Assembly (NCBI RefSeq): GCF_000484695.1
Contig: NZ_AXVR01000014.1
Location: 1 to 64,000, forward strand
Reading direction: 5' to 3'
Length of the DNA: 64,000 bases
Origin: Salinispora cortesiana
GTDB taxonomy: Bacteria; Actinomycetota; Actinomycetes; Mycobacteriales; Micromonosporaceae
Shown: positions 26,856 to 36,935 of the stretch, in pieces
How positions within the stretch are numbered: position 1 is the stretch's first letter
Layout: each line of letters opens with the position of its first letter
Notes under the pieces: generated by a model
Seen by the model: the letters and a program-made list of their open reading frames with translations, nothing else
What the model was told of the DNA's origin: nothing
Databases searched by the model: none
Position numbers and translations under genes: made by a program

Positions 26856-27077
26856 GGCGTGGCAAGCTAATGGTTGAGCCGCCGTCGCGGAAGCGCGGGG
26901 CCGAGGGCAGCCGGGAAGTCCGGTGCGGCACCCGAGGTGGACGGGCGCCCGTCCACGCCACGTCACCGGCCCCGGCCTTGGCCGGGGGTCCTTAACCCGG
27001 GTGCCTCGCCCGCAGGAGGAACGGCCCGGCGCCCCGCCGGAGTTTCGGCTCCGGCCTGGTCCGAGGAGACACCGCGC

Positions 27078-29978
27078 ATGAGACCCATGAACCGACGCCG
27101 CGGCTGGGCGATAGCCACCGCGGCGGTGCTTGCGGTAGCCGGCGGGGCGACCCTACCCGCGCAGGCCGCGTCGGCCGCGCCGGCCTGCGACGTCAGCTAC
27201 ACGACCAACGACTGGGGCAGCGGCTTCACCGCGAACCTCACCCTTACCAATCTCGGCGACCCGATCACGGGCTGGACCCTGCGATTTGCCTTCGCCGGCA
27301 ACCAGACCATCACCCACGGCTGGTCGGCGCAGTGGAGCCAGAGCGGCAACGACGTCACCGCCACCAACGAGTCCTGGAACGGCAGTCTCGGCACCGGCGG
27401 CACCGCACAGATCGGCTTCAACGCCGCGTACAGCGGTACCAATGCCGACCCGACCTCGTTCTCCGTCAACGGCGTCCCCTGCGGTGGTGCGCAGCAGCCG
27501 CCGACGGTCTCGCTGAACGTGCCGGCCGGGCCCTTCGAGGCGCCGGCCGACGTGCCGCTGACGGCCACCGCCAGCGACCCGGACGGGAGCATCAGCAAGG
27601 TCGACTTCTATCGCAACGGTCTGCTGGTCAACACCGACACCACCGCCCCGTACGCGTACACCCTGCCGGGTCTGCCGGCCGGCTCCTACACCGTGCAGGC
27701 GAGGGCGTACGACGACACCGGGCTCAGCGCCATCGCGGAGCAGTCCTTCACCGTCGCACCCGCCGCCGGCCCACAACTGGTCGCCACCCCCGCCACGGTG
27801 GGCGTGCCGGAGGGCGGCGACGCCACCGTGACCCTGACGTTGAGTGCGGCACCGGCCGCGAACGTCCAGGTGGGCCTCGCCCGTACCGGTGACTCCGACC
27901 TCACCGTCGCCCCCACCTCGCTGACGTTGACCACCGGGAACTGGAACACCGGTGTCGACGTGACCGTGTCGGCGGCCGAGGACGCCGACACCGCCGGGGG
28001 CAGCGCGACGATCACCGCCTCCGCCGCCGGCCTCGCCGCGTTGACGATTACCGCGACGGAGATTGACAACGACCTTCCCGGCGGCGACAACGAGTACGTC
28101 GCACGGTTCCTCACCCAGTACGGCAAGATCAAGAACTCTGGGTACTTCAGCCCCGAGGGGGTACCGTACCACTCCATCGAGACCCTGATCGTCGAGGCGC
28201 CGGACCACGGCCACGAGACCACGAGTGAGGCGTTCAGCTTCTGGCTCTGGTTGGAGGCGCAGTACGGCCGGGTGACCGCGGACTGGGCGCCGTTCAACAA
28301 CGCCTGGACGGTGCTGGAGAACTACATCATTCCTTCCTCCGCCGACCAGCCGACCGCGGGCGCCCCCGGCACCGCGCAGTACGCCGCCGAGTACGACCTG
28401 CCCAGCGAGTACCCGGCGCAGCTGCAACCGAGTGTCCCGGTCGGCCAGGACCCGTTGCGGGCCGAACTCCAGTCCACCTACGGCACCGGTGACATCTATG
28501 GCATGCACTGGTTGCTCGACGTGGACAACACCTACGGCTTCGGCCGGTGCGGCGACGGCACCACCCGGCCGGCGTACATCAACACCTTCCAGCGTGGGCA
28601 GCAGGAGTCGGTCTGGGAGACCGTCCCGCAGCCGTCCTGTGAGACCTTCACCCACGGTGGGCAGTACGGCTTCCTGGACATCTCCGTCCAGGAGCAGAAC
28701 GCGCCGGCGAAGCAGTGGAAGTACACCAACGCGCCGGACGCCGACGCCCGGGCGGTGCAGGCCGCCTACTGGGCGCTGACCTGGGCCACGCAGCAGGGCC
28801 GGGCCGGGGAGGTGGCGGCCACCGTGGCCAAGGCCGCCAGGTTGGGTGACTACCTGCGGTACGCGATGTTCGACAAGTACTTCAAGCAGATCGGCAACTG
28901 TGTCGGGGCGTCCACCTGCCCCGCCGGCAGTGGTCGGGAGTCCGCACACTACCTACTGTCCTGGTACTACGCCTGGGGCGGCGCGTACGAGCCGGGTCAG
29001 AACTGGTCGTGGCGGATCGGCTCCAGCCACAACCACTTCGGCTACCAGAACCCCTTCGCCGCCTGGGCCCTGACCACCGTGCCGGAACTTGAGCCGAGGT
29101 CGCCGAGCGCGACCACCGACTGGGCCCAGAGTCTGGAGCGGCAGCTGGAGTTGTATACCTGGCTCCAGTCCGCCGAGGGCGCGATCGCTGGTGGTGCGAC
29201 CAACAGCTGGGGCGGCCGGTACGGTCAGCCACCCGCGGGCACGCCGACCTTCTACGGCATGTTCTACGACGAGAAGCCGGTCTACCACGACCCGCCGTCG
29301 AACCAGTGGTTCGGCATGCAGGCCTGGTCGATGCATCGGATCGCCGAGCTCTACCTCGAGACCGGTGATGCCCGGGCCGAGGCGTTGCTGGACAGGTGGG
29401 TGCCGTGGGCGATCGCCAACACCACTCTGGGCGCCGATTGGTCGATCCCGGCCGAACTCACCTGGACGGGCCAGCCGAACACGTGGAACCCGACCAACCC
29501 GGAGCCGAACACCGACCTGCACGTCGAGGTGACCGAGACCGGCCAGGACGTTGGTGCCGCCGCCGCCTACGCCCGGACCCTGATCGCGTACGCGGCGAGG
29601 TCGGGGGACGTGGCCGCCAAGAACACGGCCAAGGGGTTGTTGGACGCGCTGCACGCCGCCAGTGACGCCCTGGGTGTGTCGACGGTGGAGAAGCGGGGCG
29701 ACTACGAGCGCTTCGACGATGTCTATGACGCGAGCACCGGGCAGGGCCTCTATCTGCCGCCGGGCTGGATGGGCACGATGCCCAACGGCGACGTGATCGA
29801 GGCGGGGAGGAGTTTCGTCGAGATCCGGTCGTTCTACCTCAACGATCCGGACTGGCCAAAGGTCCAGGCCTATCTGGACGGCGGCGCCGAGCCGACATTC
29901 CGCTACCACCGGTTCTGGGCTCAGGCCGACGTCGCGATGGCGTACGCCGACTTTGGGCGGCTCTTTCCGAACAACTGA
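27078..29978 (+). CDS. Secreted GH48 exocellulase with CBM2 and Ig-like modules
   Basis: This 966-residue secreted cellobiohydrolase carries, in order, a signal peptide (about residues 1-36), a CBM2 (about 37-135) and a bacterial Ig-like module (about 138-232; PPTVSLNVP start). A Calx-beta-like module (about 235-330; VPEGGDATVTLTLS) and a GH48 catalytic domain (about 335-966) follow. The GH48 acid glutamate lies in the conserved APDHGHETTSEAF segment. GH48 enzymes work processively from the reducing end of cellulose and release cellobiose. GAGGAG at 27063-27068 sets the ATG at 27078. Two CebR-like sites precede it. Confidence 0.9.
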   Translation: MRPMNRRRGWAIATAAVLAVAGGATLPAQAASAAPACDVSYTTNDWGSGFTANLTLTNLGDPITGWTLRFAFAGNQTITHGWSAQWSQSGNDVTATNESWNGSLGTGGTAQIGFNAAYSGTNADPTSFSVNGVPCGGAQQPPTVSLNVPAGPFEAPADVPLTATASDPDGSISKVDFYRNGLLVNTDTTAPYAYTLPGLPAGSYTVQARAYDDTGLSAIAEQSFTVAPAAGPQLVATPATVGVPEGGDATVTLTLSAAPAANVQVGLARTGDSDLTVAPTSLTLTTGNWNTGVDVTVSAAEDADTAGGSATITASAAGLAALTITATEIDNDLPGGDNEYVARFLTQYGKIKNSGYFSPEGVPYHSIETLIVEAPDHGHETTSEAFSFWLWLEAQYGRVTADWAPFNNAWTVLENYIIPSSADQPTAGAPGTAQYAAEYDLPSEYPAQLQPSVPVGQDPLRAELQSTYGTGDIYGMHWLLDVDNTYGFGRCGDGTTRPAYINTFQRGQQESVWETVPQPSCETFTHGGQYGFLDISVQEQNAPAKQWKYTNAPDADARAVQAAYWALTWATQQGRAGEVAATVAKAARLGDYLRYAMFDKYFKQIGNCVGASTCPAGSGRESAHYLLSWYYAWGGAYEPGQNWSWRIGSSHNHFGYQNPFAAWALTTVPELEPRSPSATTDWAQSLERQLELYTWLQSAEGAIAGGATNSWGGRYGQPPAGTPTFYGMFYDEKPVYHDPPSNQWFGMQAWSMHRIAELYLETGDARAEALLDRWVPWAIANTTLGADWSIPAELTWTGQPNTWNPTNPEPNTDLHVEVTETGQDVGAAAAYARTLIAYAARSGDVAAKNTAKGLLDALHAASDALGVSTVEKRGDYERFDDVYDASTGQGLYLPPGWMGTMPNGDVIEAGRSFVEIRSFYLNDPDWPKVQAYLDGGAEPTFRYHRFWAQADVAMAYADFGRLFPNN

Positions 29979-31359: not shown

Positions 31360-32403
31360 ATGCGACCTACGAGGTTTACGTTGCGTCGCGCCGCGGCGGT
31401 GGCCGCGGCCGGAACTCTGGTGGTCGGAGTACTCGTCGGCAGCCCCGCGCAGGCGGCAGCCCCCAACGCGTCTCCGGAAGCCGCCGCTGACCTCGCCGAG
31501 CAGCTCGGCGACCGCGCCGCCGGCGTCTACGCCGAGGCCGACGGCAGTATCGTCGTCACGGTGACCGACGCTGCTGCCGCCCAGCAGGTCAGCACCGCCG
31601 GAGCCACCCCGAAGATCGTCGAGCGTGGTGCCGCCGAGTTGCAGCGCGCCACCGCGGAGCTGGAACGCTCAGCCAAGATCCCCGGCACCGCCTGGTGGAC
31701 GGACCCGGCGACCAACCAGGTCGTCGTCTCCGTCGACAGCACGGTGACCGGTGCCAAGCTGGCGCAGGTCGAGGCCGCCGTGGCCCGCAGCGGCGGTGCG
31801 GTGCGCATCGAGTCGGAGGCGGGTGTGTACAGCACCCGGATCACCGGGGGCGAGGCGATCTACGGCAGCGCCGGTGTGTGCTCGCTCGGCTTCAACGTCC
31901 GCAGCGGCAGCAACTACTACTTCCTCACCGCCGGGCACTGCACCGACGTGATCTCGAACTGGTACGCCAACAGCTCGCTGAGCAACTACCTTGGCCCCAC
32001 CGCCGGGTCCAGCTTCCCCGGCAATGACTACGGCATCGTCAGCCTCAGCGGCGGCTACCAGCCGGGCTACGTCTACCTCTACAACGGCAATCACCAGGAC
32101 ATCACGTCCGCCGGTAACGCCTACGTCGGCCAGTCCGTGCAGCGTTCGGGCCGGACCACCGGTCTGCGCAGCGGCTCGGTCACCGGGCTGAACGCCACCG
32201 TCAACTACGCCGAGGGCACGGTCTACGGCCTGATCCGCACCAACGTCTGCGCGGAGCGGGGCGACAGCGGCGGCTCGTTGTTCAGCGGCTCCACCGCGCT
32301 CGGCCTCACCTCCGGCGGTAGCGGCAACTGCTCCTTCGGTGGCACGACCTTCTTCCAGCCGGTCGTTGAAGCCCTGAACGTCTACGGCGTCAACGTCTAC
32401 TGA
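31360..32403 (+). CDS. Streptogrisin-like secreted serine protease (S1 family)
   Basis: This 347-residue secreted preproprotease has a signal peptide (about 1-33, ending AQA), an alpha-lytic-protease type prodomain (about 35-165) and a trypsin-fold mature domain. The catalytic triad is visible as TAGHC (His), FPGNDYGIV (Asp) and ERGDSGGS (Ser). Disulfide cysteines are in place (TAGHC, NVC, NCSF). It degrades extracellular protein after self-cleavage of the prodomain. A related but frameshifted gene lies at 49416-50977. A strong terminator follows. Confidence 0.9.
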
Positions 32404-32485: not shown

Positions 32486-32523
32486 GAGAAGGCCCGGCTT
32501 CCCACGGGAGGCCGGGCCTTCTC
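32486..32523. terminator. Bidirectional hairpin terminator
   Basis: A 13-bp perfect stem (32486-32498 with 32511-32523) with a 12-base loop lies between the convergent protease and DUF397 genes. Confidence 0.8.
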
Positions 32524-32535
32524 TGTGGCTGCTGG

Positions 32536-32724
32536 TCAGTGCTGTTTGGTGTAGGTGACGAACCGGCGCCATGCCGCCGGGCCGAAGGTGAGGGCGGGCC
32601 CGGTCGGGTCCTTGGAATCCCGGACACCCACGACATCCGGAAGGTTGTCGGCAACCTCCACGCAGTTCCCGTGGCCCGAGCTCCGGCCGGACTTGCGCCA
32701 CATCGCGTCACTGAGCCTAGTCAT
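32536..32724 (-). CDS. DUF397 domain protein
   Basis: This 62-residue protein has the DUF397 pattern WRKSGRSSGHGNCVEVAD...VGVRDSKDPTGPALTFGPAAWRRFV. In actinobacteria these small proteins are almost always paired with an XRE-DUF5753 regulator and are thought to modulate it, as with the WhiJ and BldB-type systems. Here the pair is present with an 8-base overlap. Confidence 0.9.
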   Translation of the reverse strand: MTRLSDAMWRKSGRSSGHGNCVEVADNLPDVVGVRDSKDPTGPALTFGPAAWRRFVTYTKQH

Positions 32725-33583
32725 AGTACTTCTCCTTGATCGTGAGTAGGGCTTTCCGGGAGTCGTCGGCGTCCAGCGCTTGCGCGGTCAGCGCATTCCA
32801 GGCGTCGGCGTACGTTCGAACCTCCGCTATTTGATCGAGGTAGAGGGCGCCGGACAGCCCCTCATTGTAGACCGTGGTCGGCTCGGCGGGGCGAAGCCCG
32901 ATTTTGGGGAAGTCCAGAATGACAAAGCTTCCCGAGGTCACCATCGGGCTGAGCTTGCCGCCGAGGGGCATCACCCGCACGGAGATGTTCGGGGCCGTGC
33001 TGGCGTCGAGCAGTCGATCGATCTGCGCGCGCATCCCGGGCACGTTCTTGTGTAGTAGCGCCTCTTCCAGGACGACATCCAGGGTTGGGGCGGCGGGCCG
33101 CTTTCGGTGCAGCAGGCGCTGCCGCTCGGCGCGTAACTCCACGAGCTTCGCCACCTCCTCCGGAGGGTTACCCGGCTCGGTGCGGATGGCCTGCTCGGCG
33201 TACGTCGGCGTCTGGAGTAGCCCCGGCACGACAGCATGTTCGTAGGTCCGGATCCGGCTGGCCGCTGACTCCAATCCGACATACAGCTCGAACCAGCGGG
33301 GGATCGCCTCGCCGTAGGAGTGGTACCAGCCCTTGCTCTTCGACTCCTTGGCGAGGCTCTTCATGACCTCCGTCATCTCGGCTGACGTTCCATACAGCCG
33401 GCACATTTGATCAACGTCCAACACGCGGATGGGCGCCTGCCCCGATTCGATGCGATACATCTTGGCGCGGGACCATTCAAGATCGGCGGCAGCGGCTTCC
33501 AGCCCTATGCTGGCCTGTTCTCGTGCCTGTCGAAGCAGCCTGCCAAGTTGCCGCCTCGGCACTGTCGATCCGACGTCGGTCAT
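32717..33583 (-). CDS. XRE-family regulator with DUF5753 domain
   Basis: This 288-residue regulator has an N-terminal helix-turn-helix (about residues 10-65; LGRLLRQAREQASIGLEAAAADLEWSRAKMYRIESG). A C-terminal DUF5753 domain follows (about 100-285; YEHAVVPGLLQTPTYAEQAI and VRVMPLGG). It overlaps the DUF397 gene by 8 bases, giving the usual WhiJ-like regulator/DUF397 pair. It is divergent from four tiny coupled genes starting at 33802, which are its likely targets. The regulator's ligand or partner signal is unknown in nearly all members. Confidence 0.9.
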   Translation of the reverse strand: MTDVGSTVPRRQLGRLLRQAREQASIGLEAAAADLEWSRAKMYRIESGQAPIRVLDVDQMCRLYGTSAEMTEVMKSLAKESKSKGWYHSYGEAIPRWFELYVGLESAASRIRTYEHAVVPGLLQTPTYAEQAIRTEPGNPPEEVAKLVELRAERQRLLHRKRPAAPTLDVVLEEALLHKNVPGMRAQIDRLLDASTAPNISVRVMPLGGKLSPMVTSGSFVILDFPKIGLRPAEPTTVYNEGLSGALYLDQIAEVRTYADAWNALTAQALDADDSRKALLTIKEKYYD

Positions 33584-33801
33584 TGGTGGGTCTCTCCCTG
33601 TCTCATCCTGATGCGCTGGCGGGGCATGTCATGAGATGGCGATCGCATCATTCCCTAAAAACGTCGTCCTGCATAGAGGTTCTTAGTCCGAGACATTGCA
33701 TCCGAGATCGATTGCGCTAATCGTGGGTCGTAGGGCAGTGGAAAAGCCACCGCCCGGGGTGGAGCAAGCACCGCAGTGGGGCCCTTCAAACAGGAGCATT
33801 C

Positions 33802-34026
33802 ATGAGGACAGCTACTAAATACCTATCACCCGACCGGCTGCCGCAGCGCGTACGTCGAACCGCGCAGCTTGACTCGACCAGTAGCGATCAGCTCGCGGTC
33901 GTGACCGGAGTCGATTCGGAGCAGCGGCTGCCTTCCGGCCGTGTCGTCGGCTGCGCTGGTGTCGGCTGTGCGCGTCCGAGCGACGACGTGCTCGCGGCCG
34001 TGCTGGCCGGGCTACGGAGGCTGTGA
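33802..34026 (+). CDS. Small hypothetical protein, 74 aa, first of a four-gene micro-operon
   Basis: This basic N-terminal, Cys-containing C-terminal protein (RVVGCAGVGCARPSDDVLAAVLAGLRRL) has two cysteines five residues apart. No signal peptide is present. CAGGAG at about 33792-33797 precedes the ATG at 33802. Its TGA shares one base with the ATG of the next gene (TGATG). It lies 218 bases from the divergent XRE regulator. I do not recognise a family. Confidence 0.6.
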   Translation: MRTATKYLSPDRLPQRVRRTAQLDSTSSDQLAVVTGVDSEQRLPSGRVVGCAGVGCARPSDDVLAAVLAGLRRL

Positions 34027-34223
34027 TGGCCGACGACAACAAGCCGGCCGAGGTGCGGGCCAACCACGATCCGCACGGCGCGCCGCCGTTGGCCGATGGC
34101 GATCGGGTACGGCGAGCCGCCCCGCCGGTGCACACCCCGCCACCGACGACCAGGCAGAAGGCGGTGGCCATCCTGATCGTGGTGATCGTCGTCGCCGCCA
34201 TTGTGATCGGGGCCCTGCGGTGA
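34026..34223 (+). CDS. Small single-pass membrane protein, 65 aa
   Basis: A hydrophilic N-terminal half of about 43 residues leads to one strong hydrophobic helix (about 45-63; VAILIVVIVVAAIVIGAL) and a terminal Arg. This predicts a tail-anchored or C-terminal single-pass protein with the N-terminus inside. GGAGG at 34016-34020 supports the ATG at 34026. Its stop overlaps the GTG of the next gene (GTGA). Confidence 0.65.
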   Translation: MADDNKPAEVRANHDPHGAPPLADGDRVRRAAPPVHTPPPTTRQKAVAILIVVIVVAAIVIGALR

Positions 34224-34360
34224 CCGCCCAGCCGGGAGGTCGTCTGCCATTGGTTGGCCGGGCGGTCGGTGTAGCCCAGGTCGGCTATCCGCCGACGATC
34301 GATGAGCACGCGTTGCGGGTAGTCCTGCTCGCCGCGCTGGCGCGGATCCGAGCCTCCTGA
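34220..34360 (+). CDS. Small hypothetical protein, 46 aa
   Basis: A GTG at 34220 overlaps the previous stop (GTGA), and the frame ends in TGA at 34358-34360, which overlaps the ATG of the next gene. The product starts MTAQPGGRLPLVGRAV and ends in a Leu/Ala-rich helix (EHALRVVLLAALARIRAS). The stop-start overlaps on both sides support real translation by coupling. No family is recognised. Confidence 0.55.
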   Translation: MTAQPGGRLPLVGRAVGVAQVGYPPTIDEHALRVVLLAALARIRAS

Positions 34361-34584
34361 TGGTGAACGAACGGCACCTGCCGATGCGGCCCTTATGGGG
34401 CTGCGACACCTGTCGGGCCGATTGGCCCTGCCCCGCTGCTCGCCGCGCCCTGCTGGCCGAATACCACGACGACCGCATTGCGCTACGCGTCTACCTTGCG
34501 GCGCTGATGGCAGAGGCCGACGTGCAGCTGTCGCAGGTCGGCAGGAACGCGGATCTGTATCGCCGGTTTCTGGCTTGGGCGTAG
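34360..34584 (+). CDS. Small Cys-rich protein, 74 aa
   Basis: The last gene of the micro-operon. The N-terminal part has WGCDTCRADWPCPAARRALL, three cysteines in a C-x2-C-x5-C arrangement that could bind zinc or iron. The rest is helical (EYHDDRIALRVYLAALMAEA). I recall proteins of this form in many Micromonosporaceae next to XRE/DUF397 pairs, sometimes mislabelled flavin reductase. The length is far too short for that, so I give no function. Confidence 0.65.
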   Translation: MVNERHLPMRPLWGCDTCRADWPCPAARRALLAEYHDDRIALRVYLAALMAEADVQLSQVGRNADLYRRFLAWA

Positions 34585-34754
34585 CCGTGCGGAGGCCAGG
34601 TCAAGCCCGGCGAGCTCGGCGGCGAGTTGGGAAGAGGGTTCCGGGCCGTGCAGCGATATCAGCGCCGCACGGCCCGTTTGAACAGGCAGGTCAAAGCCGT
34701 GGTCAAGGAGTTCTCGGGCCGGGCAGGGCGCGTCTGCTGGCAGGGATATGGTTA

Positions 34755-34772
34755 TCATCAAATTATTGATGA
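34755..34772. repeat. AT-rich inverted repeat
   Basis: TCATCAA and TTGATGA form perfect 7-bp arms around ATTA. It lies 29 bases upstream of the orphan gene at 34801, in a segment poorer in GC than the neighbours. It may be an operator or a small hairpin. The remaining bases between 34585 and 34800 hold no gene I can support. Confidence 0.45.
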
Positions 34773-34800
34773 GGCTGTGGGGCTTTAGGGGTCGTGCTGA

Positions 34801-35301
34801 ATGTCAGAAGCCGCCAAGATGATCCGATCGATAGCCGGCCTTTGCCTGTCGGGTATTGGTAGGTCCCTAAATACGGGGGTGTTCTCCTTCGGGGCAGATG
34901 TGGTCTGGGGTCAATCCGACACGGGAGCCTCTCGCGTGGGAAGTGAGTACGCAATTCATGTGCAATGTCCCTTTAGGCTTACGAGGGGAGGTCGAATTTT
35001 GATTGGGTCCGATGACATTTTGCTCTCCCGTGAGGTCCTGACTGATTCCATCAGCTGCCATTACGATGAAGAAGTCACAACTGCCTTCGATGTTGTTGCT
35101 GACCGCATTGTCAAGGGAGCCCGGTCATCCCCGCTTGTTGTCCGTGACGTAGGAATCACAAAGTCGGGCGATTTGCGTGTGGATCTATCGGATCGGGTCG
35201 CGATAGAGGTGTTCCCGGCAAGCGGCAGCCCATTTGAGGCGTGGCGGTTCCTCAGGCGCGGGGGAGAGCATCTGGTGTTTCCCTCGGACTTTGAGCTGTA
35301 G
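34801..35301 (+). CDS. Orphan hypothetical protein, 166 aa, lower GC
   Basis: This soluble protein has a mixed alpha/beta pattern, opens with a helix (MSEAAKMIRSIAGLCLSGIG) and ends in FRRGGEHLVFPSDFEL-like residues. I do not recognise it. The GC content and codon choice (frequent A/T third positions, e.g. GAT, GTT, TTT, CAA) differ clearly from neighbours, suggesting recent transfer. Size, the WRFLRRGGEHLVFP ending and orphan placement resemble immunity proteins of polymorphic toxin systems, but no toxin gene is present, so that is only a suggestion. Confidence 0.6.
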   Translation: MSEAAKMIRSIAGLCLSGIGRSLNTGVFSFGADVVWGQSDTGASRVGSEYAIHVQCPFRLTRGGRILIGSDDILLSREVLTDSISCHYDEEVTTAFDVVADRIVKGARSSPLVVRDVGITKSGDLRVDLSDRVAIEVFPASGSPFEAWRFLRRGGEHLVFPSDFEL

Positions 35302-35523
35302 TTGGTCAATTCGCGGCGATCGAAACTGCGCCTGAGTAATCGGCGTTGGTACTTGATCGGAGTGGCGTGGCTGGTGAAGCCCGTCTCCGATGGAGGTGTT
35401 GCCGAAACCCTGCGCCAGATGGCCGAATGCTAGTCGGGGTCCGCGATCTGCCCCGGACTGCGGTACCGTATCCCCAGCTCAGTGCTGTGAGTCGGCCCTG
35501 GCTCGCGACTTCGGGAGAAGGCT
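35302..35523 (+). other. Gene debris in the lower-GC patch
   Basis: I see no intact gene in these 222 bases. A frame beginning GTG at about 35362 reads VAWLVKPVSDGGVAETLRQM and stops at a TAG near 35430. That is the kind of fragment left when a gene's 5' part is lost. There is no family match I can support. Confidence 0.35.
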
Positions 35524-35688
35524 ATGGCGAGCTTCGATCTAGCTTTCTGGTATCAAAAAGTGGCCCCAACATCAGACGAGGCCGCTCAGATCTACGACCG
35601 GTTGACGGATGGAGTTACCGGTATCGTCGAAGAGAGTTCGGCTGCCGAGGACTTCTGCGCTGGTCGTCTTGGAGTCGGCCATGCGTGA
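35524..35688 (+). pseudogene. Truncated N-terminal fragment of a hypothetical protein
   Basis: This frame of 54 codons starts MASFDLAFWYQKVAPTSDEA and continues AQIYDRLTDGVTGIVEESSA before ending GVGHA-stop. The start is like the N-terminus of a family of longer immunity-like hypothetical proteins (opening with an SFDLAxWY strand and an IYDRL helix) but it stops after about 50 residues. It overlaps the next gene by 8 bases. It may be a truncated relic, or a short coupled reading frame. The resemblance is from memory and not strong. Confidence 0.4.
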
Positions 35689-36055
35689 CATTCGATTTCC
35701 CGAGATGCGGCATGAGATAGTTCTGGCCGTGAAGGCCCTGGCGGACCCGGCGTATCAGTGGTCTGCGTGGATCCGACGCGAACTGCCTCCCGGCAAGTAT
35801 GACGAGTTCACTCATCGTATCCACATCCTGTACGACGATACGCAGGTGCTGGAAGATCCGGACGCCGCGATCGGCACCTACCTGAGATCTCGGGAGGAAG
35901 CCGATGCGATGCGATACTTGGCCCAAGTGATCGATTCATTATTCGACGAATTGGGCACAGATCTTTCCGACGAGGAATATTTACGGGCGCCGGGCTGGGC
36001 GGCGATCGTGGATGCCGCAGGTGCGGCGCTCTCAACCCTGAGGGATGATGGTTAG
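35681..36055 (+). CDS. SCO4402-like conserved hypothetical protein
   Basis: This 124-residue acidic helical protein, MRDIRFPEMRHEIVLAVKAL to the C-terminus, resembles the SCO4402 family of actinobacterial proteins. Members contain W-x-x-W-I-x-R-like segments (YQWSAWIRRELPPG) and DEEYLRAPGW near the end. Function is unknown. The ATG at 35681 overlaps the tail of the preceding fragment, so translation may be coupled. A longer upstream frame is less likely. Confidence 0.65.
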   Translation: MRDIRFPEMRHEIVLAVKALADPAYQWSAWIRRELPPGKYDEFTHRIHILYDDTQVLEDPDAAIGTYLRSREEADAMRYLAQVIDSLFDELGTDLSDEEYLRAPGWAAIVDAAGAALSTLRDDG

Positions 36056-36200
36056 TGCGGTCTATATCGATGCGCTTTTCTGGGTGACATCGATACGACG
36101 CGTGGCCTCCCCGCTGCGAAGTGCGTCGCGGGTGATGAGCAATCGTGGATGTCGCCGCTGGGGAAGTCGACGGGCGCCCCGGCGTGTGGGTGCGGGTGAC

Positions 36201-36935
36201 TCAGTGGGTCTCCTCGGGAGGGGCCTCGATCCTGGTGTGCAGGATCTCGCGTGCCTGTTCGGCGGCGCGGGCGATGCTCTCCGAGACGAAGTCGACGAAG
36301 CGGGCGATGTTTTCCAGCCGGGCGGCGGCCGGGCTTCCCGGGCCCAGGACGCTCGCCCCCTGCCGGGCGATCTGGCCTAGGTGGGCGGTGGCCTTCGCGC
36401 TGGCCATCGTGGACTGGTACATCACGTCGTTGTCGACCACGTAGCGTTCCCGCCGCCGCTCGTCGCGCTCCCGCCGGACCAGCCCCTGGCTCTCCAGAAA
36501 TGCGATCGCCTTGGAGACCGAAGCCGGGCTGACCTGTAGCCGTCCGGCGATCTGCGCGGCGGTGAGACTGCCGGCATCGGTGGTGTAGAGGCAGGCCAGC
36601 GTCCGCGCGGTCATCCTTGGCAGCCCGGACGCCATGAACACGCCGGCGAAGGTTTCCTCGTACTCCCGTACCGCCTCGGCGTTGCGTCCGCGCGCCGCCG
36701 GCGGGTTGCTCGGGCGAATCGGCGAGGTGGTCCGGCGTCGGCGCGCGCGACGCGTGGTGGCGTGGTGGGCGAGGTCGCCCCGATAGGCCGTCGCGCCGCC
36801 GTTACGCATGACCTCCCGGGTGATGGTCGAGGTCGGCCGGTCGAGGCGTCGGGCGATCTCCGCGTAGGTGAGGCCGTCGGCCAGGCCGACGGCGATCTGC
36901 TGGCGGTCCTGCTGCGTGAGCCTGCCCCCCGGCAT
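36201..36935 (-). CDS. IS30-like HTH fused to a MarR/GbsR-type regulator
   Basis: This 244-residue regulator joins two DNA-binding parts. Residues about 1-60 (LTQQDRQQIAVGLADGLTYAEIARRLDRPTSTITREVMRNGG) are the helix-turn-helix found at the N-terminus of IS30-type transposases. Residues about 90-235 are a winged helix of the MarR/GbsR kind (LTAAQIAGRLQVSPASVSKAIAFLESQGLVRRERDERRRERYVV). No transposase catalytic domain is present, so this is a domesticated fusion and not an insertion sequence. It diverges from a DUF4097 gene, and repeated ATTGCAA elements in the 220-base gap are its likely sites. Confidence 0.8.
   Translation of the reverse strand: MPGGRLTQQDRQQIAVGLADGLTYAEIARRLDRPTSTITREVMRNGGATAYRGDLAHHATTRRARRRRTTSPIRPSNPPAARGRNAEAVREYEETFAGVFMASGLPRMTARTLACLYTTDAGSLTAAQIAGRLQVSPASVSKAIAFLESQGLVRRERDERRRERYVVDNDVMYQSTMASAKATAHLGQIARQGASVLGPGSPAAARLENIARFVDFVSESIARAAEQAREILHTRIEAPPEETH

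Follow-up and report, generated by a model that had tools for sequence, protein, structure and literature searches.

A probable WhiJ/BldB-type regulatory locus of Salinispora cortesiana and its divergent cassette of coupled microproteins

The window, by which we mean the whole stretch of 64,000 nucleotides from contig 14 of Salinispora cortesiana that was analysed, contains a regulator pair on the minus strand and, divergent from it, four small genes here called P1 to P4. The features of the locus are the following:

32536-32724, minus strand: DUF397 (BldB-like) protein, 62 aa (PF04149, E=7e-22); pN/pS 0.27 in five orthologs
32717-33583, minus strand: XRE/WhiJ-like regulator, 288 aa, with HTH_31 and DUF5753 (PF13560, E=8e-15; PF19054, E=9e-47); pN/pS 0.27
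33584-33801, no strand: divergent intergenic region, 218 bases, presumed site of both promoters and of regulator binding
33802-34026, plus strand: P1, 74 aa (37-row alignment); pN/pS 0.46
34026-34223, plus strand: P2, 65 aa, predicted C-tail-anchored single-pass membrane protein (29-row alignment, hydropathy); pN/pS 0.34
34220-34360, plus strand: P3, 46 aa, GTG start, putative short, diverged duplicate of the C-terminal region of P1 (profile comparisons and shuffles); pN/pS 0.40
34360-34584, plus strand: P4, 74 aa, putative H-x8-C-x2-C-x5-C knuckle followed by helices (53-row alignment, AF2 model); pN/pS 0.25

The four small genes are joined by stop/start overlaps, namely TGATG between P1 and P2 (34024-34028), GTGA between P2 and P3 (34220-34223) and TGATG between P3 and P4 (34358-34362), and an AGGAG precedes the ATG of P1 here as well as in all four intact orthologs. 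On the other strand, DUF397 lies directly downstream of the regulator, and the 3' end of the XRE gene and the DUF397 gene share 8 bases. A preliminary description had already reported genes of 74, 65, 46 and 74 codons with these overlaps and a WhiJ-like XRE/DUF397 pair opposite, and both points are borne out at the coordinates listed, the pair by its HTH_31, DUF5753 and PF04149 matches. The same description held that all four proteins are unknown, and this is supported: none of P1-P4 reached the family cut-off in Pfam or NCBIfam, and searches of PADLOC and PHROGs gave nothing convincing, the best match overall being that of P2 to DUF6480 (E=0.021).

Of 151 genomes of the genus, nine have P1 matches at E<1e-3, i.e., the window's own, four named Salinispora, G181 (which we take to be S. 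tropica CNB-440), G208, G254 and G288, and the search yielded five P1 orthologs beyond the window's own, 80-81% identical. In four of these (L059-L062), belonging to the nearest relatives as judged by P1, Salinispora pacifica, S. fenicalii, S. mooreana and S. oceanensis, the frames of the quartet and all three overlaps are intact, with XRE proteins 92-97% identical, and an insertion of 36 bases (12 codons) in the P3 of L061 keeps the frame. The fifth ortholog (L063/L193, genome G288) is decayed: it has a frameshift in P2, has lost P3 and the greater part of P4 by deletion, and lacks the XRE side. The quartet is thereby intact in five of the six ortholog loci, the window counted, and the pN/pS values listed above refer to these five; in both other frames of P1-P4, used as a control, pN/pS rises to 0.96-1.59 (for P3 this control leaves out L061 because of its length, the in-frame value being 0.45 there). 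Since frames and overlaps are shared by five of six orthologs and the in-frame pN/pS is low, the arrangement is more than chance, and the difference between the frames of P3 indicates that this smallest gene is selected as a coding frame. We conclude from the comparison of orthologs that all four small genes are real, protein-coding and under purifying selection, and that even a 46-codon gene is defensible by comparative evidence. The preliminary description had named a lack of co-occurrence, or of conservation in the smallest frames, as what would speak against it; the orthologs keep the quartet, their pN/pS is low and the pair co-occurs with the small genes in relatives.

P4 is the most widespread part of the cassette. 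Its relatives are found in 136 of 200 Micromonosporaceae genomes, spanning 24 of 44 genera, with 1 to at least 29 copies per genome, and the window's own genome contains 17 at E<=0.01, including a copy on contig 38 with an internal stop codon. The P4 of the window was matched by none of 72,556 plasmid records and none of 50,697 phage records, and among the best 14 candidates of each of 394 class-level genomes, a search of limited sensitivity in which absence is soft, five genomes were positive: the window's own, two of its genus and two with weak partial matches. Residues C15, W22, P23, C24, L42, A53, R69 and W73 are invariant in 53 aligned rows and H6, R10, P11, W13, C18, L31, L57 and F70 nearly so, H6 and C18 occurring in at least 90% of the rows. 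The C-x2-C-x5-C spacing that was first noticed in P4 is present, but the conserved motif is fuller, H-x8-C-x2-C-x5-C. From this motif, P4 would be expected to bind a metal, probably zinc, through the His and the three Cys residues. The AF2 model has three helices (pLDDT 92, pTM 0.77). As for known zinc-finger families, one of the 53 members matched DUF4379, a treble-clef model, in Pfam at E=0.0098, no such family was matched in NCBIfam or among PDB sequences, and comparison of the model with the PDB and a viral fold library gave nothing at E<=0.001. By these searches P4 is an uncatalogued protein family, and the family libraries used miss a family that has at least 29 copies in some genomes. 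Pairs of neighbouring P4-type genes, one of them a divergent form, occur at four loci (L103, L104, L110 and L112); in L103, L104 and L112 this form (WDCxxCGEPWPCP) is ahead of the ordinary one. In L046, L047, L114, L122 and L124, P4 has no DUF5753/DUF397 pair nearby and stands behind a different small gene with an end of the PPLLTxxWRRxFExQARE type.

P2 is predicted to be a tail-anchored single-pass membrane protein. Tail-anchored proteins carry their membrane stretch at the very C-terminus, and residues 46-64 of P2 form a 19-residue segment with a hydropathy of 3.36 that ends one residue short of it, in agreement with the single membrane passage proposed earlier. Outside this segment the motif DPHGxPPLPDGDRV is conserved in the 29-row alignment. 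Strong P2 matches occur in 2 of the 200 family genomes and weak ones in 10. Outside Salinispora, P2-like proteins with PPxPDGDRVPxPP and a membrane tail immediately precede a different type of XRE gene at five loci (L215-L218 and L222), and at two loci of one genome they lie near DUF397 (L219, L227).

P1 is variable at its front and conserved towards the C-terminus, where G50, V54, G70, L71, R72 and L74 are invariant over 37 rows. The AF2 model has a mean pLDDT of 62, rising to about 96 at residues 61-74, with a confident helix at 61-73 and the rest predicted to be mostly disordered. The C-x4-C motif by which P1 had been characterised exists in the window, but it is kept in four of the six orthologs, being lost in L191 and L192, and is absent from the remaining 31 sequences of the alignment, so it defines nothing for P1. 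In the 200 family genomes, P1 is solid in two (the window's and G181), with weak partial matches in six. A candidate homology of P1 with the GRxGWLTPAQxWRANGGRW proteins that precede P4 elsewhere was dropped, the P1 profile match not being significant.

P3 appears to be related to P1. A profile of five P3s matched the P1 of L165 and L174 at 3e-6 and that of L178 at 2e-4, and the sum of the twenty P1-P3 alignment scores, 766, exceeds that of all 500 column shuffles (448 +/- 48); because the two results agree, homology is accepted. Profile-profile comparison gave a probability of 69% over 19 columns, and a plain nine-sequence P1 profile placed four of the five P3s above all 1005 shuffled or reversed decoys, while a profile of the four paralogs alone placed none there and single pairwise scores were equalled by 3 to 35 of 1000 shuffles. 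Matches to P3 obtained by iterating the P1 profile are left out of the count, as they are circular. Judged by these profiles, P3 is a diverged copy of the C-terminal part of P1. As a separate gene it is confined to the five intact orthologs, the other 33 P1 loci having none.

The surroundings of P1 were compared in 42 loci, namely that of the window, those of four paralogs and 37 regions surrounding P1 matches, drawn from nine genomes; the sample leaves out five weak matches (E 0.05-0.09) in those genomes and all weak ones elsewhere. The P1 profile matches 38 of the 42, the initial matches of the other four (L179, L185, L186 and L187) having held a stop codon. In these 38 loci P2 is next in 37, a divergent XRE gene is found in 31, DUF397 in 28 and P4 in 21, counting as present the parts of L172 (P1 split in two and a short P4 piece), of the decayed ortholog L193 and of L039 (a stop codon near the front of P4). 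The XRE match is weak or partial in two of the 31 (L171 and L174) and undetected in seven of the 38, one cut by a contig end and one decayed. Three P4-less loci (L166, L167 and L174) have instead a gene with GRCPVCGTxKRCWPWADA, likewise C-x2-C-x5-C. In L038 and L055, upstream of P1, there is an additional gene for a small membrane protein that has this Cys spacing too, and one of the same kind lies before P4 in L040, L041, L043, L056 and L057, which carry a protein ending VANPQVGRVGWLTPAQQWRANGGRW in place of P1. Downstream of P1-P2 in L166, L167, L170 and L171, and in the direction of the cassette, lies a second DUF397-like gene, an arrangement by which DUF397 can occupy the output side too.

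For P4, 40 of the 136 positive genomes, none of them the window's, were sampled by their best match; these are mostly the strongest matches, and the sample is biased towards close relatives. With an XRE gene counted when upstream, on the divergent strand and at E<1e-20, 30 of the 40 loci have a DUF5753-type XRE gene and DUF397 upstream and divergent; three of the ten others (L106, L121 and L122) show weak HTH matches only. The small gene upstream of P4 has a GRAGWLTPAQTWRANGGRW-type end in 17 loci, of which 14 belong to the 30. In the window's own genome 8 of the 17 P4 copies face an XRE gene, i.e., 8 of the 14 that can be judged, as three of the nine others are at contig edges. In its 5.18 Mb this genome has about 22-23 DUF5753 genes (there are 24 matches, but two belong to a single gene on contig 9 and one is a short fragment), a density from which simple arithmetic predicts well under one such copy, as against the 8 found. 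No DUF5753-type XRE gene is near 6 of these 14 copies and 10 of the 40 sampled ones, hence P4 does not need the local switch. Among the 39 loci that have XRE, DUF397 and P4 together, distances are correlated between XRE and DUF397 (rho 0.35, 0 of 2000 permutations as high) and between XRE and P4 (rho 0.30, 14 of 2000), and barely at all between P4 and DUF397 (rho 0.13, 180 of 2000).

On this comparison of gene order, the recurrent unit is an XRE/DUF397 pair divergent from P1, the predicted tail-anchored P2 and P4, of which the quartet is a local form, and the wider unit is an XRE/DUF397 pair facing P4 with exchangeable small genes upstream of it. The earlier proposal that quartet and pair make up one module stands as far as the pair recurs with P1-P2 and with P4, but the full set of four genes belongs to a single ortholog group (P3 in 5 of 38). 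The developmental switch and the membrane-anchored assembly that it suggested would be possible roles.

Within the intergenic region, the candidate operator element CCTGTCTCATCCTGATGCGC at 33597-33616, just upstream of the XRE start, contains GTCTC; four of the five intact loci share it unchanged and the fifth differs by one change, and two 9-base pieces of it recur at the paralogous locus L055. A search for words shared across loci gave a best of 12-13 against 14, 16 and 16 from three shuffles, direct repeats in 33584-33801 were no more than in shuffles and no sigma-70-type promoter was matched there. As for the flanks, a GH48 cellulase with CBM2 (26874-29978) and an alpha-lytic-type serine protease (31360-32403) lie to the left of DUF397, and by eye a GC-rich hairpin, which the scan used for promoters does not list, is seen at about 32487-32524 between protease and DUF397. 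To the right of P4 are a DUF6188-like gene (34801-35301, below cut-off) and a SCO4402-family gene (35609-36055). The approximately 1.6 kb at 34593-36189, directly after P4, has no counterpart at the S. oceanensis ortholog (L190), in which sequence matching 34592 joins that matching 36190, and it is likewise missing in L193. Beyond it, a gene on the minus strand (36201-36935) joins an HTH_38 domain, common in transposases, to a MarR-type winged helix; L190 and L193 also keep this DNA next to the cassette.

We consider it fairly probable, by analogy with Streptomyces, that this is a WhiJ/BldB-type regulatory locus driving a new divergent and exchangeable cassette of coupled microproteins, which may work together at the membrane or with a conserved host factor. 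Of the features of such loci, it has an XRE protein with DUF5753, DUF397 directly downstream and an output gene adjacent to them, the last by position only.

Three other explanations deserve attention. That the locus is a toxin-antitoxin system, with DUF397 or P2 as toxin and XRE or a neighbouring microprotein as antitoxin, is in our opinion unlikely. The available text of one study reported in 2009 the expansion of XRE/DUF397 to 20 operons in S. tropica and predicted these pairs to be type II systems (PMC2701414), and a tiny P2 with a very hydrophobic tail, together with many paralogs in uneven copy number, would suit such a role. However, as far as the accessible text goes, a set of fourteen DUF397 proteins from S. 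coelicolor gave no clear sign of toxicity (PMC10364602); moreover, P1-P4 match no toxin, antitoxin or defence family in Pfam, NCBIfam, PADLOC or PHROGs, and the conserved P2 motif lies outside the membrane tail, where a simple pore would not need it.

Quite unlikely, too, is a paralog family without host function, maintained by duplication and turnover. The range of P4 copies per genome, the decay of the ortholog in G288 and the swapping of parts between loci are what such a family would produce, but all six genes are under purifying selection, P4 is unmatched in the plasmid and phage records and the cassette includes no recombination or transposition gene. Finally, we regard as very improbable a peptide-product locus, in which P1 (and P3) would give rise to a peptide signal that is modified or exported, helped by P2 and P4: the variable front and conserved C-terminal part of P1, and the co-occurrence of some graspetide clusters with DUF397/DUF5753 genes in the text available of PMC13097080, would fit it, but the cassette lacks a modifying enzyme or transporter, the scanned neighbours are the protease beyond DUF397 and the DUF6188-like and SCO4402-family proteins, no RiPP modifying enzyme is among the nearest neighbours (Pfam on both sides, NCBIfam on the right-hand side) and the conserved part of P1 has no invariant Cys, Ser or Thr.

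The nearest experimental model for such a regulatory locus is the iosA-whiJ9-bldB9 locus of Streptomyces venezuelae, in which, according to the available text, whiJ9-bldB9 adjoins iosA and WhiJ9 binds three direct repeats in between; the huge activation of iosA upon loss of BldB requires WhiJ9, which appears to repress itself, BldB binds BldB9 and does not bind DNA, and overexpression of iosA or abaA6 leads to a sporulation defect (PMC10294661). By analogy with it, the XRE protein would bind near its own start codon within 33584-33801, repressing itself and activating the divergent operon, and DUF397 would restrain it until a signal is met. Upon release, to judge from the anatomy of the genes, stop/start coupling could set the ratios of P1, P2, P3 and P4; P2 would be held in the membrane through its C-terminal tail, P4 would be folded around a metal, probably zinc, by its His and three Cys residues, and P1 and P3 might be binding peptides acting through the C-terminal helix. 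The products might form a small membrane-linked complex, or be partners of a conserved host factor, altering growth or development. More speculatively, and as one possibility that we hold with low confidence, P4-centred cassettes in general could be hidden outputs of the WhiJ/BldB switches of Micromonosporaceae, i.e., combinatorial membrane-tethered metal-knuckle complexes in which P1/P2, the C-x2-C-x5-C membrane protein or the GRxGWLTPAQxWRANGGRW protein are swapped from locus to locus, tuning development or kin behaviour.

What WhiJ/BldB paralogs control has long been asked, and the outputs named in the available text are AbaA paralogs and IosA (PMC10294661). A conserved, multi-copy cassette facing WhiJ/BldB pairs across the family offers concrete targets in Salinispora and Micromonospora. 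The open-licence literature, as far as its texts were available, including PMC10294661, PMC10364602, PMC6262351, PMC2701414, PMC7159879, PMC4255298 and PMC13097080, contains no mention of a divergent microprotein cassette or of the P4 family. Similarly to the whiJ/abaA(orfA)/bldB paralog clusters of Streptomyces, our locus combines the same regulator and DUF397 families, in multiple copies, with a third type of gene; the third gene of those clusters, however, is AbaA, an anti-sigma-like HATPase_c protein, and P1-P4 have no Pfam match to this domain. With iosA-whiJ9-bldB9 it shares the order of XRE/WhiJ followed by DUF397/BldB, with the output across a common intergenic region, whereas the output there, compared by size and description only and in the part of the source available, is one predicted cytoplasmic protein of 15 kDa and here four microproteins of 46-74 aa including a predicted membrane protein (PMC10294661). 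The likeness to known XRE/DUF397 pairs in general lies in the regulator pair itself and the difference in the divergent microprotein cassette, which their available descriptions do not mention. The pairs, in short, are already known, and what is new here is the proposed type of WhiJ/BldB output, a cassette of microproteins.
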